Positions 48,942 to 54,196 of a stretch of DNA of 64,000 bases are shown in pieces. A model generated the notes under the pieces. That model saw only the letters and a program-made list of their open reading frames with translations. It did not search any database and was not told the DNA's origin. The position numbers were made by a program, and so were the translations under genes. The DNA is from Natrinema saccharevitans (GTDB lineage Archaea; Halobacteriota; Halobacteria; Halobacteriales; Natrialbaceae), in contig NZ_LWLN01000001.1 in assembly GCF_001953745.1 (NCBI RefSeq), forward strand, positions 3,162,001 through 3,226,000. Reading direction: 5' to 3'. How positions within the stretch are numbered: position 1 is the first letter of the stretch; each line of letters opens with the position of its first letter.

Positions 48942-49988
48942 TCACTCGTCGTCGGCGTCGCGCCACGAGTCCGGGACGTCGATCACGTACCGGCCGTCCT
49001 CCTGAAGCGAGATGATGTACTCCTCGCGGTTGTACAGTTCCATCAGGTTGAGTTCGTACTGACCCGGACGGACGATCTTGATGCTCTCGAACTGTTCGTT
49101 GAGTTCCGCCCGGAGTTCCTCGATCGACGGGCGCTGGCCGCTCGGTTCCTGAACGACCCGTCCGTGTTCCGGCGGTTCGTCGATGGTGTCAGTCACGGGT
49201 TGGGTCCCGCCCGTGGAGTCGGTTGCGGAGAGGGATTCATCCGTGGAGTCGGTTGCGGAGAGGGATTCATCCGTGGAGTCGGTACCGGGGTGGAGCTTGT
49301 CGCCGCCCTCGGCCTCGAGTCGGGGTTCGTCACCCTCGTGTGCTGGCAGTTCGTCCGGGGGAACGACCTCGCTTCGAGCGTCGGCCTGCGCCGTGTTCTC
49401 GTCGTCTGCATACGTCGTCGTCGGGCCCTCGGTCGGCCGATTCGAGCCGTTTGCCGACCGATCGGACCGCTCGGTGTCGTCGACCGCCCGATCGGCCGGC
49501 GGGTCGGAGCGGTCCGCGGGCCGACGTGCCGTCTCCGGCCACTCGTCGAACTCCCCCTCAGGCCCAGTATCGGTGCCGGTTGCCGGCTCCGAGTCGTCCG
49601 TCCCGGCGGTCCCGCTCGAGGGCCAGGAGCCGGCGTCCGCAGTCGAATCGGCATCCGCGGTCGGTCCCGCGTCCGTCGGTTGGCGGTGATCGGTACCGTC
49701 CGATTCGGCGTCGTCGGCCGAATCGGAAGACATCAGGTTTCGGACGGTTTCGGCGGCTCGAGTCGCGACGCCGTCCGGGGGCTCGGTTGCGCTCGAGTTC
49801 GGCGTCGAACCGGCATCGACTGCGCCCGAGCCGTCGGTTTCGGTCTCCGTCGAGGCCGACGAGTCGGTCGCGGCCGTCGCGGTCGGCGCGAACTGGAACT
49901 TGTTCCCGCCACAGTCGGGACAGCCCGACAGCATCTCCTTGGAGCCGTCGGCAAATTGCCGGCCGCAGTTCGTACACTGATGGGGCAT
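48942..49988 (-). CDS. oapC: Origin-associated protein OapC (zinc ribbon)
   Basis: A 348-residue protein. The N-terminus MPHQCTNCGRQFADGSKEML then SGCPDCGGNKFQF is a four-Cys zinc ribbon; about 225 residues of acidic Ser/Thr/Asp linker with 12-residue repeats (about 230-250, ATDSTDES units) follow; the C-terminal 65 residues (LNEQFESIKIVRPGQYELNLMELYNREEYIISLQEDGRYVIDVPDSW) are conserved. This is the third gene of the haloarchaeal oapABC cluster that always sits next to orc1 and oriC1. It overlaps oapB by one base. Function is not defined biochemically. Confidence 0.88.
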   Translation of the reverse strand: MPHQCTNCGRQFADGSKEMLSGCPDCGGNKFQFAPTATAATDSSASTETETDGSGAVDAGSTPNSSATEPPDGVATRAAETVRNLMSSDSADDAESDGTDHRQPTDAGPTADADSTADAGSWPSSGTAGTDDSEPATGTDTGPEGEFDEWPETARRPADRSDPPADRAVDDTERSDRSANGSNRPTEGPTTTYADDENTAQADARSEVVPPDELPAHEGDEPRLEAEGGDKLHPGTDSTDESLSATDSTDESLSATDSTGGTQPVTDTIDEPPEHGRVVQEPSGQRPSIEELRAELNEQFESIKIVRPGQYELNLMELYNREEYIISLQEDGRYVIDVPDSWRDADDE

Positions 49989-50389
49989 TAGTTGCGGGAC
50001 ACGAGCGCGCTGATGAGCGTTTCGTCCTTGTGGAGCGTCTCGATCTGGTTGGCCGGGCCGATCACCGTCAGTTTCGCTTCCGCCTGATCGCCACCCATGA
50101 TCCGACCGAGCAGCGACGAGTCGCGGGTATCGGACTTGGGATAAGTCTCGATCTCGATCCCGTTGAACTCGTCGGGGCTGATCTCGGCCATCGTCACCTC
50201 GATGAGCCGGCTCTCCTCGTCGGGCGTCAGTCCCTCCTCGAGGATGACGATGTTGCCGTCGTGGACGCCGTCCAAGATCATCCTGATTTTCTCCATCGTC
50301 GCCATGCCGGCCATGCGTTCGCCGCTGATCAGGTCGATCTGGACGCCGTCGGGAGCGTCGGAGTCGTCCGCGTTAGTTGCTTTTGGCAT
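49988..50389 (-). CDS. oapB: Origin-associated protein OapB (DUF2073)
   Basis: A 133-residue protein, DUF2073-like: VQIDLISGERMAGMATMEKIRMILDGVHDGNIVILEEGLTPDEESRLIEVTMAEISPDEFNGIEIETYP, with the second half SSLLGRIMGG and KLTVIGPANQIETLHKDETLISALV. Archaeal orthologues are fixed next to the OapA GTPase and the origin. Its stop overlaps the oapC start (TAATG). Only six bases separate it from oapA. The name comes from position and conservation; the biochemical role is open. Confidence 0.9.
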   Translation of the reverse strand: MPKATNADDSDAPDGVQIDLISGERMAGMATMEKIRMILDGVHDGNIVILEEGLTPDEESRLIEVTMAEISPDEFNGIEIETYPKSDTRDSSLLGRIMGGDQAEAKLTVIGPANQIETLHKDETLISALVSRN

Positions 50390-50395
50390 CGGTTA

Positions 50396-51034
50396 TCACC
50401 CGAAGTACTCCGCGATGTTGTCGTAGACTTCGTCCATATTGTCCCCCTCTTTGGCCGACAGGGGGACGGTCTTGTGTTGGGGGAACGCGTCTTCGATCCG
50501 CTTGACGCTCGAGTCGTCGAGATCGATCTTGTTCGCGAAGATGAGAACGGGGAGATCCCGCGATTCGATGATGCCGATCAGCATCGTGTTGACCTGCGTG
50601 ATCGGGTCTTCGGCGCTGTCTAAGACGTAGATGACGCCGTCGACGTCCTCGCGGAGCCAGTGCATCGCCTCGGCGACGCCTTCGGTCGCTTCCCGGGAGC
50701 GGCGGATGGCGTCTTCCTCGCCCATCTCGTCGGTGAACTCCTCGTAGTCGACCTTCGTCGTCACGCCGGGCGTGTCGACGATATCGATCGTCACCGTCTT
50801 GCCGTCGCGTTCGATTTCGACGTTTTCTTTCCGGCGTGCGCGCCGTGTCTCGTGGGGGACGTGGCTCTCCGCGCCGACCGCGTCACCGGTCCAGTCACGC
50901 GCGATGCGGTTCGCAAGCGTCGTCTTTCCAGCGTTTGGCGGACCGTAGATACCGATTCGTTTGGGCTCCTGTTCCGAAAACAGGCGATCCGTTGCCCGAG
51001 AGATACTATCTTTGAGTTCTGTGAACAGTCCCAT
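50396..51034 (-). CDS. oapA: Origin-associated Era-like GTPase OapA
   Basis: A 212-residue G protein: GIYGPPNAGKTTLANRI (G1), DTPGVTTKVDYEEF (G3), LIFANKIDLDD (G4 NKxD) and LSAKEGDNMDE (G5). Unlike Era it lacks a KH domain. ATG 51034 (MGLFTELKDSISRATDRLF) is preferred; 51052 adds six residues. It heads the oapABC run leading away from oriC1. A TATA-like CTTAAG (51091-51096) is about 60 bases upstream. Confidence 0.92.
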   Translation of the reverse strand: MGLFTELKDSISRATDRLFSEQEPKRIGIYGPPNAGKTTLANRIARDWTGDAVGAESHVPHETRRARRKENVEIERDGKTVTIDIVDTPGVTTKVDYEEFTDEMGEEDAIRRSREATEGVAEAMHWLREDVDGVIYVLDSAEDPITQVNTMLIGIIESRDLPVLIFANKIDLDDSSVKRIEDAFPQHKTVPLSAKEGDNMDEVYDNIAEYFG

Positions 51035-51404: not shown

Positions 51405-51431
51405 CCCCCCACCCCTTCGTTTCGAGTGGAG
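51405..51431 (-). promoter_or_regulatory. Origin recognition box (ORB), left
   Basis: Minus strand: CTCCACTCGAAACGAAGGGG followed by TGGGGGG. Core TCCA-CT-CGAAACGAAGGGG plus the halophile G-string. It binds the Orc1/Cdc6 initiator. It faces away from the A+T-rich element. Confidence 0.88.
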
Positions 51432-51540
51432 ATGGACGAACGGGGGAGCGCATCGAGACGGTGATCCGGAGCGATTCACCCCTGATTTCCACTCGAGTCG
51501 CCGTTCGGAGGGGTCTCAAGGGCGAACTCGGCAAAGAGAC

Positions 51541-51705
51541 CGGTTCTAGTAACTCGAATAGAGATCTAGTAATTAGAGGACGGACAAGCTACTAATCTAG
51601 CAGGTACTAGCAATACTAAATAACTCCCTAGTAAAGTATTGTCGTCTGCTAGTTCTGCGGATACTGTTTCTGATCTGTATAAATAAAACTTCCCTCTTAA
51701 AATGA
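51541..51705. other. A+T-rich duplex unwinding element with phased CTAG sites
   Basis: The A+T-richest stretch of the origin, flanked by the inverted ORBs. It contains six CTAG tetranucleotides at 51546, 51566, 51597, 51607, 51628 and 51649, several in the longer form CTAGTAA or TACTAG. Its right end, TATAAATAAAACTTCCCTCTT, is followed directly by the C-tract. The likely site of strand opening. Confidence 0.75.
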
Positions 51706-51736
51706 CCCCTCCCCCCCCCCACCCCCTCTTCGCTCC

Positions 51737-51769
51737 GTTCCACCCGAAACGAAGGGGTGGGGGGGGGAG
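51737..51769 (+). promoter_or_regulatory. Origin recognition box (ORB), right, with long G-string
   Basis: GTTCCACCCGAAACGAAGGG followed by GTGGGGGGGGGAG. Core plus the longest G-string in the window. With the C-run at 51706-51728 (CCCCTCCCCCCCCCCCACCC) it forms a long G/C-tract inverted repeat. Confidence 0.9.
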
Positions 51770-51865
51770 TCCGGCACGTCTGATGTTCCCGTGACTCACT
51801 TGATTCCTGTTCCACTTTCCCATCCGTTTCGACTCTACCTCTCCCCGCCTCGCCCCTCTCTTCCC

Positions 51866-51906
51866 ACCCCACCCCACCTCACCCCACCCCACCCCACCCC
51901 ACCACA
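51866..51906 (-). repeat. ACCCC/GGGGT tandem tract in oriC1
   Basis: Seven or more ACCCC units with one ACCTC variant on the plus strand, i.e. repeated TGGGG on the minus strand. Four or more G4 runs with one-base spacers could form a G-quadruplex. It lies about 100 bases right of the strong right ORB. Confidence 0.8.
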
Positions 51907-52441: not shown

Positions 52442-54196
52442 ATGTCAGACGACGACTCAGAGATCGCGGGTTCGGACGAGGTCGAGGTCGACGGAGCGAA
52501 CGGGTTCTCGAGGGATTTCGAGAACGCGGATCTCGGCGACGAGGAGTCGAATCAGGGCCTATTCGACGACCTGTTGAGCGGCGAACCGATCTTCGAGAAC
52601 AAGGAGGTCCTGCGACCGTCCTATACCCCACACGAACTCCCCCACCGGAGCGATCAGATCAACAAGATGGCGACGATTCTGGTCGCCGCGCTCCGCGGGG
52701 AGACCCCCTCGAACATCCTCATCTACGGGAAGACCGGGACCGGCAAAACCGCGAGCGCGAAGTTCGTCAGCAAGGAACTCGAGAGTACGTCCCAGAAATA
52801 TTCGGTCCCCTGTGACGTCGAGTACATCAACTGCGAGGTTACCGATACCCAGTATCGGGTCCTCGCACAGCTCGCGAACAAGTTTATCGAGAAGAACGAG
52901 ACCCGGATCGACGAGCGAATCGACGACCTCCGATCCCTGCTGGACGATCTCGAGGCGTACGACCGCGCCGCCGACGGCTCGAGCGACGAGCCGGCAGATG
53001 AGACGGCGTCGGACCCGTTCGATTTCGTCTCCGAGGACGAGATCGACGGCGACACCGAAACTTCGACTGGAACTGATATCGGACCGCAGTCCGGCGGTTC
53101 TCCACTCGAAACAGGGGGGTCAGCCGACCGGAGCGATTCGCCGTCCGAAACCGAACCCGCGGCCCTCGAGAACGCTGCCGACGGGTCCGAGGCGTCCGGG
53201 GACGGTGCCGCTGATCCGACACCCGATCACCCGCTCGCATCGACGCCGTTCGGCGGGCGAGACGAGATCGAAGACCGGATCGCGGAGCTACGAGACGACA
53301 AGGACTCCTTCGAGGAGGTGCCGATGACCGGCTGGCCGACCGACCGGGTCTACAGCGTCTTTTTCGACGCCGTCGACTACGACGAGCGGGTCGTCGTCAT
53401 CATGTTGGACGAGATCGACAAACTCGTCGAGAAAAGCGGCGACGACACGCTCTACAATCTCTCGCGGATGAACTCCGAACTCGAGAACTCCCGTGTTTCG
53501 ATCATCGGTATCTCGAACGACCTGAAGTTCACCGACTTCCTCGATCCCCGCGTGAAGTCCTCGTTGGGGGAAGAGGAGATCGTCTTCCCGCCCTACGACG
53601 CCAACCAGCTTCGAGACATTCTCGAACATCGCTCCGAGGTCGCGTTCAAGGGGGGCGCGCTCTCGGGTGACGTGATCCCGCTGTGTGCGGCCTTCGCCGC
53701 GCAGGAACACGGGGACGCACGGCGCGCGCTGGATCTGCTGCGGACCGCCGGCGAACTCGCCGAGCGTTCCCAGTCGGAGACGATCGTCGAGGAACACGTC
53801 CGACAGGCCCAGGACAAGATCGAACTCGATCGCGTGGTCGAGGTCGTCCGCACTCTGCCGACGCAGTCGAAACTCGTCCTCTTCGCGATCATCCTGCTCG
53901 AGAAAAACGGCGTCCACAGCATCAACACGGGCGAGGTGTTCAACATCTACAAGCGCCTCTGCGAGGAGATCGACGCCGACGTGCTGACCCAGCGTCGGGT
54001 GACCGACCTCATCAGCGAACTCGACATGCTCGGAATCGTCAACGCCGTCGTCGTCTCCAAGGGCCGGTACGGCCGGACCAAAGAGATCAGCCTCTCGGTC
54101 CCGCTCGAGGAGACGGAGGCCGTCCTCCTCTCCGATTCGCGGCTTTCCGATATCGACGACGTTCAGCCGTTCGTACAGGCCCGGTTCGAGAACTGA
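52442..54196 (+). CDS. orc1: Orc1/Cdc6 replication initiator
   Basis: A 584-residue AAA+ initiator that binds ORBs at oriC1 and recruits MCM. Walker A YGKTGTGKTASAKF (Gly96-Thr103), Walker B MLDEIDKLVE (322-326), sensor 1 GISNDLKF, sensor 2 GDARRALDLLRTAG, and a C-terminal winged helix (YKRLCEEI, LTQRRVTDLISELDMLGIV). An acidic low-complexity insert at about 175-270 between Walker A and B contains the ORB-like pair at 53061-53123. Length is greater than typical Cdc6 because of this insert and a 45-residue acidic N-terminus. ATG 52442 is preferred over the upstream in-frame TTG at 52316. Confidence 0.97.
   Translation: MSDDDSEIAGSDEVEVDGANGFSRDFENADLGDEESNQGLFDDLLSGEPIFENKEVLRPSYTPHELPHRSDQINKMATILVAALRGETPSNILIYGKTGTGKTASAKFVSKELESTSQKYSVPCDVEYINCEVTDTQYRVLAQLANKFIEKNETRIDERIDDLRSLLDDLEAYDRAADGSSDEPADETASDPFDFVSEDEIDGDTETSTGTDIGPQSGGSPLETGGSADRSDSPSETEPAALENAADGSEASGDGAADPTPDHPLASTPFGGRDEIEDRIAELRDDKDSFEEVPMTGWPTDRVYSVFFDAVDYDERVVVIMLDEIDKLVEKSGDDTLYNLSRMNSELENSRVSIIGISNDLKFTDFLDPRVKSSLGEEEIVFPPYDANQLRDILEHRSEVAFKGGALSGDVIPLCAAFAAQEHGDARRALDLLRTAGELAERSQSETIVEEHVRQAQDKIELDRVVEVVRTLPTQSKLVLFAIILLEKNGVHSINTGEVFNIYKRLCEEIDADVLTQRRVTDLISELDMLGIVNAVVVSKGRYGRTKEISLSVPLEETEAVLLSDSRLSDIDDVQPFVQARFEN
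53061..53123. repeat. ORB-like inverted pair inside the orc1 linker
   Basis: Left half CTTCGACTGGAACTGA (53061-53076), right half TTCTCCACTCGAAACAGGGG then GGTCAG (53098-53123). The right half keeps the full ORB core with G-run; the left half lacks the C-run. Encodes TSTGTD and SPLETGGSADRS of the acidic insert. Confidence 0.6.

Follow-up and report, generated by a model that had tools for sequence, protein, structure and literature searches.

The oriC1 replication origin of Natrinema saccharevitans holds six CTAG sites, phased along the helix, in the A+T-rich element between its inverted ORBs, and this array is confirmed as a real feature of the 64,000-nucleotide stretch of DNA analysed here (the window). 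We regard it, at a probability of roughly 0.48, as a conserved recognition array in the oriC1 unwinding element that acts together with Orc1 and is sensitive to methylation, in the manner of SeqA on GATC. The description of the array at base level, its conserved phase and the whole-turn steps that separate it from the left ORB (ORB_L) are new here.

Table 1 Features of the oriC1 region, in positions of the window.
Feature	Position	Strand	Basis or remarks
CTAG array	51546..51652	+	six sites: 51546, 51566, 51597, 51607, 51628, 51649
Left ORB (ORB_L) with G-string, CCCCCCACCCC-TTCGTTTC-GAGTGGAGA	51405..51432	-	sequence; genus-wide conservation; anatomy as in PMC3528665, PMC3936714
Right ORB, GTTCCACCCGAAACGAAGGGGTGGGGGGGGG	51737..51768	+	sequence, alignment
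ORB-half-like element, TTTCCACTCGAG	51486..51497	+	between ORB_L and array; widely conserved in Natrialbaceae
Conserved block, TGCTAGTTCTGCGGATACTGTTTCT (also given as TGCTAGTTCTRCGGWTACTGTTTCT)	51647..51671	+	right array end; contains CTAG site 6
G-rich inverted repeat, left arm	51442..51448	+	sequence; function by analogy with PMC3936714
G-rich inverted repeat, right arm	51706..51729	-	sequence; PMC3936714
A+T-rich element, presumed duplex-unwinding element	51531..51680	.	40% GC
orc1/cdc6 initiator gene, oriC1-type	52442..54196	+	Cdc6_C, Cdc6_lid domains
GTPase gene adjoining the origin	50396..51034	-	MMR_HSR1; OapA-like by position
oapB, origin-associated protein	49988..50389	-	PF09846

The surroundings of the array are those of an ORB-flanked haloarchaeal oriC1, with inverted ORBs carrying G-strings, an A+T-rich element, an adjoining orc1/cdc6 gene and oapB (Table 1). 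The origin is flanked by oapB and the GTPase gene on one side and by the orc1/cdc6 gene on the other, which is the usual oriC1 neighbourhood. Both the A+T-rich element and a G-rich inverted repeat lie between the inverted ORBs, and the strongly conserved block that covers the right-hand side of the array terminates in GTTTC, resembling half an ORB. In the oriC1 of Haloarcula hispanica the G-rich inverted repeat is an enhancer (PMC3936714). Like the array, that enhancer is an inter-ORB element, and it has a counterpart in the window; it differs from the array in being G-rich, in flanking the array here and in holding no CTAG. The interval between the right ORB and orc1 contains a run of CACCCC repeats at 51865-51903, the other strand of which is G-quadruplex-capable.

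Within the array the sites are spaced by 20, 31, 10, 21 and 21 bp. CTAG is otherwise scarce: the window holds 25 copies compared with 85 expected from dinucleotide shuffles, and the 19 copies outside the array are singles or loose pairs. With 0.30 CTAGs per kb in the rest of the window, six of them in 107 bp have an expectation of ~5e-9 per window. Under the harshest null, in which the element itself is shuffled and the shuffles inherit the CT, TA and AG of the array sites, six or more CTAGs still arise in 1.2% of dinucleotide shuffles. Five further A+T-rich stretches in the window hold no more than one CTAG each, and neither TTAA nor TATA is enriched in the element. The best period of the array is 10.3 bp with a resultant of 0.98, a value reached by 0.02% of random placements with fixed ends (p ~2e-4). 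The sites are also directional, as sites 1–5 read CTAGYAR on the plus strand and site 6 reads CTAGYAR on the minus strand. According to pattern searches of the 3.98-Mb genome, the arrangement CTAG-N17-CTAG occurs only twice, both times in the array. The original prediction, made from the letters of this stretch, had described six helically phased CTAGs at an origin, in DNA where the word is rare and scattered; positions and spacings are borne out exactly, and so are the rarity, the phase and the location in the A+T-rich element of an origin.

Conservation was followed in 29 Natrinema genomes in which oriC1 was located via Orc1. Among the 27 that keep the oriC1 element, 25 retain five or all six of the sites in matching positions, with the spacings 20-31-10-21-21 recurring, while one of the other two has four sites and the last (G006) two CTAGs. 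Number and phase are therefore conserved in close relatives, the main point on which the prediction had been declared open to refutation. In 25 aligned elements the CTAG columns are 98.5% identical vs 55% for the remaining columns of the element, and none of 20,000 random six-tetramer sets was as conserved. Kinship inflates counts among congeners; the contrast between columns within one alignment is independent of it. In G006 both ORBs are kept and the element and its CTAG array have decayed despite the presence of the methylase, so that this oriC1 is possibly a dying origin. In two further genomes, G010 (L116) and G011 (L115), the A+T-rich element beside the oriC1-type orc1 is gone, and it looks as if oriC1 had been lost or moved with orc1 retained. 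Halovivax-type genomes (G110, G157) resemble these two in element loss.

Beyond the genus, the core spacing 31-10-21/22-20/21 and the block TGCTAGT-N-CTRCGGATACTGTTTCT occur in other Natrialbaceae genera (ten further genomes), and in G151 the 31 is replaced by 21, shorter by one turn. No site 1 was found outside Natrinema in this alignment, and no array was found in the Natrialbaceae genomes without an ORB-flanked element (G110, G157, G117 and G123). In an unbiased count over 113 ORB-flanked elements, seven of nine groups had CTAG as the most enriched among 136 tetramers; the exceptions are group f14, where it ranks third, and the Halorubrum-containing family f5, where it is at background level. 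Likewise, no CTAG cluster was seen at oriC1 at named Halorubrum and Haloferax loci, the latter comprising two oriC1 regions. The families share no motif in the CTAG flanks, and outside Natrialbaceae there is little flank preference and only the core is common, which fits a methylase target. Phase outside Natrialbaceae is weak (at 10.2-10.8 the combined signal has p 0.015, the median p being 0.42), and the idea that such phasing holds across haloarchaea was rejected.

Close CTAG triples are found at only three places in the genome: the oriC1 array, the region upstream of a second orc1/cdc6 gene and one divergent promoter. The second cluster (L269:2774-2866; G000:C1:1750273-1750365) comprises nine CTAGs in 93 bp beside an inverted ORB-like pair, ~0.7 kb upstream of the second orc1/cdc6, with spacings of 16-11-9-5-8-5-4-31 and no helical phase. 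A cluster is present at the matching orc gene in four other Natrinema, including both that lack the oriC1 element (5/5 checked). Because the second-origin clusters are unphased, CTAG density is what accompanies origins, and strict phase is particular to the oriC1 of Natrialbaceae. The third cluster (L268:3987-4027; G000:C1:3124486-3124526; CTAG offsets 0, 17, 26 and 37) lies in the promoter region between divergent DUF5789 and PHP-domain genes and is shared with at least two further Natrinema (L270, L271). Given its place in the DUF5789/PHP promoter and the lack of an Rfam match, an origin or RNA gene was rejected here, and the cluster may be an operator to which a CTAG-reading regulator binds.

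In 36 genomes the separation between the ORB_L core and CTAG site 3 clusters around 160, 171, 182, 192 and 213 bp, and a scan of periods from 6 to 20 bp across these classes peaks at 10.55-10.7. As this register was noticed while inspecting the data, its p-values are descriptive: ~1.5e-4 when each combination of genus and class counts once, and ~1e-3 with the seven minimal states only. The orc1 gene tree requires at least three class changes inside Natrinema, and the 182 and 192 classes hence do not stem from a single event. The spacer also contains the ORB-half-like element TTTCSACTCGAG, which here leaves 70 bp to ORB_L and 111 bp to site 3. In the clear cases among relatives, the distance from ORB_L to this half-ORB is 70-71 or 81 bp and that from half-ORB to site 3 is 90-91, 110-112, 123 or 144 bp, so that both spacers differ mostly by about whole turns; in L098 ~11 were lost in the first and ~12 gained in the second. 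Assignment of the half-ORB is uncertain in a few divergent genomes (three mismatches). By comparison, the distance between the array and the right ORB hardly varies (134-139 bp), and the control spacer from the right ORB to orc1 ranges from 388 to 930 bp with no phase or periodicity. The ORB-to-ORB distance was discarded as the quantised quantity, with p 0.04 in Natrinema only and no significance in the other families tested; the quantised quantity is clearly the distance from ORB_L to the array.

A CTAG-type methylase, which the original prediction had noted for many haloarchaea, is encoded in this genome as well. It contains one clear CTAG-kind PF01555 methylase (348 aa, beta-type, SPPY motif; G000:C1:1663235-1664278), a single close homologue of which occurs in each of the 29 Natrinema. 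Its sequence suggests specificity for CTAG, and in two congeners, N. versiforme and N. pallidum, m4CTAG is modified at 97.0% and 98.7% genome-wide (PMC6696651; also PMC12160562). Throughout the order, CTAG averages 3.2 per 120 bp in the 104 genomes with the methylase and 1.4 in the 13 without. Three of these 13 lie outside f5, and two of the three are incomplete. In f5 the array is low or absent with or without the methylase, which about half of the sampled genomes keep without a CTAG array at oriC1. The order-wide correlation of methylase and cluster is therefore at least in part clade history, and the enzyme in f5 has another role or is drifting. A simple model in which CTAG follows the methylase holds on average but fails inside f5, and we do not use it as proof. 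According to the literature, GATC is abundant genome-wide in such methylase-lacking genomes; replacement of CTAG by GATC after methylase loss was considered and judged too weak (11 vs 5 expected in nine elements, 0-2 per genome). The methyl-reading SRA domain (PF02182) occurs neither in this genome nor in 161 of the order's 165, and an SRA-domain protein was accordingly rejected as the reader. Deletion of the CTAG methylase in Haloferax volcanii caused no growth defect (PMC5867850), a result that is not a test of the array because both Haloferax oriC1 regions seen lack it. In another Haloferax, unmethylated CTAGs are concentrated in low-GC regions (PMC11001535).

CTAG clusters associated with an orphan methylase at haloarchaeal origins are already published: Blow et al. 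2016 (PMC4752239) place them upstream of orc1/cdc6 genes, co-occurring with an orphan m4C methylase (cHG U / HG1; Fig. 6D), and suggest a role in replication. A later paper restates the link and terms its function unknown (PMC10609329). The present genome likewise has a non-coding CTAG cluster upstream of orc1/cdc6 and an HVO_0794/cHG U-type orphan methylase gene, and the two descriptions agree in the word, its place (upstream of orc genes, at several origins per genome) and the methylase family. They differ in that Blow et al. present motif density in 50-kb plots, and the position in the unwinding element, the phase, the CTAGYAR direction, the ORB register and a family with the methylase and without the array go beyond what its accessible text covers. 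No mention of phase, direction or register was found in the literature searched, which was covered in part and as text without figures. The text of PMC4752239 prints the motif as CATG and the legend as CTAG, an apparent misprint that can hide the paper from a text search.

Among known systems, the original prediction raised a likeness to the GATC cluster of Escherichia coli, where the palindromic target of an orphan methylase is also clustered in the origin. For efficient binding in vitro, SeqA needs pairs of GATC that share a helical face and are separated by two to three turns, and the GATCs of E. coli oriC are not phased (PMC5145175). The array, with steps of one, two and three turns, resembles the spacing that SeqA prefers. 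It differs from the E. coli system in that the latter relies on m6A and on GATCs that are unphased and abundant, whereas the target here is one of m4C methylation, phased and avoided genome-wide. The DnaA-trio, offered as a second analogy, consists of 3-nt repeats that follow one another without gaps and adjoin an initiator box. The array shares with it a short TAG-containing repeat in the unwinding region, but its sites lie 10-31 bp apart (20, 31, 10, 21 and 21) without contiguous triplets, and this comparison was dropped. The interpretation put forward in the original prediction is, as a whole, partly supported.

The conservation of four letters, their direction and the register with ORB_L point to proteins that read the array in concert with Orc1. 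In the favoured reading one protein, in one or several copies, would recognise CTAG on one face of the helix, together with the YAR flanks in Natrialbaceae, and would probably act alongside Orc1 at opening, as suggested by the rotational register of the array with ORB_L. Since CTAG is the target of an orphan m4C methylase, the sites should be hemimethylated after each replication and binding could depend on methylation, which would hold back or license refiring as SeqA does on GATC. We infer the reader protein, its methylation sensitivity and its effect on initiation; a methylation-sensitive reader is favoured because the core shared among families is the methylase target and because clusters occur at several origins. 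Several results weigh against it: SRA, the one reader family tested, is absent; f5 lacks the array irrespective of the methylase, and in G006 it has decayed with the methylase present; at the second origin the clusters do without phase, which is thus dispensable for their role there; and the unmethylated low-GC CTAGs of one Haloferax and the normal growth of the H. volcanii deletion mutant speak in the same direction, the latter with the reservation about Haloferax oriC1 given above. A more specific version, in which ORB_L, the half-ORB and the array form one rotationally locked switch and a reader of hemimethylated m4CTAG faces Orc1 and blocks or licenses oriC1 once per cycle, appears rather unlikely at present.

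The main rival to a methylation-sensitive reader is a methylation-blind architectural protein, a serious possibility with the odds against it. An architectural or nucleoid protein, or a UBP-like origin factor, would read CTAGYAR on one face, bend the element and help Orc1 to open the DNA or MCM to leave, and methylation of CTAG would be incidental. Five direct copies of CTAGYAR and one inverted exceed what a palindromic methylase needs, and this conserved direction fits a methylation-blind protein equally well. Phase and ORB_L register are kept, and the array is missing from f5, which often keeps the methylase. There is also a precedent, as UBP binding to ucm in Sulfolobus demonstrates that a further DNA-binding protein can be required at an archaeal origin (PMC12141716); ucm is likewise a non-ORB origin element read by a non-initiator protein. 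The comparison is one of role, and here the unwinding element itself holds a phased array of several sites. A methylation-blind protein leaves unexplained why the same four letters recur in many families. Outside Natrialbaceae it is only CTAG, the methylase target, that is conserved and not its flanks, and the cluster at the second origin is unphased.

The remaining explanations are considerably weaker. That phased, flexible and kink-prone CTAG steps ease bending or melting as an intrinsic property of the DNA, with no specific reader, would agree with the helical phase and the A+T-rich setting, and CTAG is reported to kink when bound (cited in PMC6471742). Other flexible steps would serve as well, yet CTAG stays fixed while its neighbours drift, TTAA and TATA are unenriched, and in other families the word persists with its phase weak; we consider this improbable. 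Quite improbable, too, is an operator bound by a transcription factor for a promoter near 51677-51689 (TATAAATAAA), with the place in the origin being secondary. It draws on a TATA-like run after the array, on the frequent occurrence of CTAG immediately ahead of start sites in a Haloferax (PMC11001535) and on the third genome cluster in its conserved divergent promoter; it conflicts with the position of two of the three clusters upstream of orc genes, with the steady distance from array to right ORB next to the variable, unphased one to orc1, and with the loss of the array together with the ORB-flanked element. Inherited coincidence, whereby a conserved element happens to hold CTAGs with no function of their own, gains from the shared ancestry of Natrinema, in which 29 copies are not 29 observations. 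The drift of the non-CTAG columns, the gain of extra sites, spacer changes of about whole turns and the recurrence of CTAG enrichment in distant families with unrelated layouts make it highly improbable.

Little is understood of how an archaeal origin is kept to a single firing per cycle, and the literature treats the role of the near-universal haloarchaeal CTAG methylase as an open question. The array supplies the exact bases to alter, namely six sites in fixed phase and an ORB_L spacer that evolves by whole turns, and its presence in Natrialbaceae but not in the Halorubrum-containing family offers a natural contrast. Within Natrinema, J7 derivatives are genetically tractable and carry oriC vectors (PMC5350488). 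As the Haloferax oriC1 regions examined lack the array, the methylase deletion in that genus may have been uninformative. If the rotationally locked switch were true, it would be the first methylation-controlled origin in archaea, independent of SeqA/Dam and more strictly phased.
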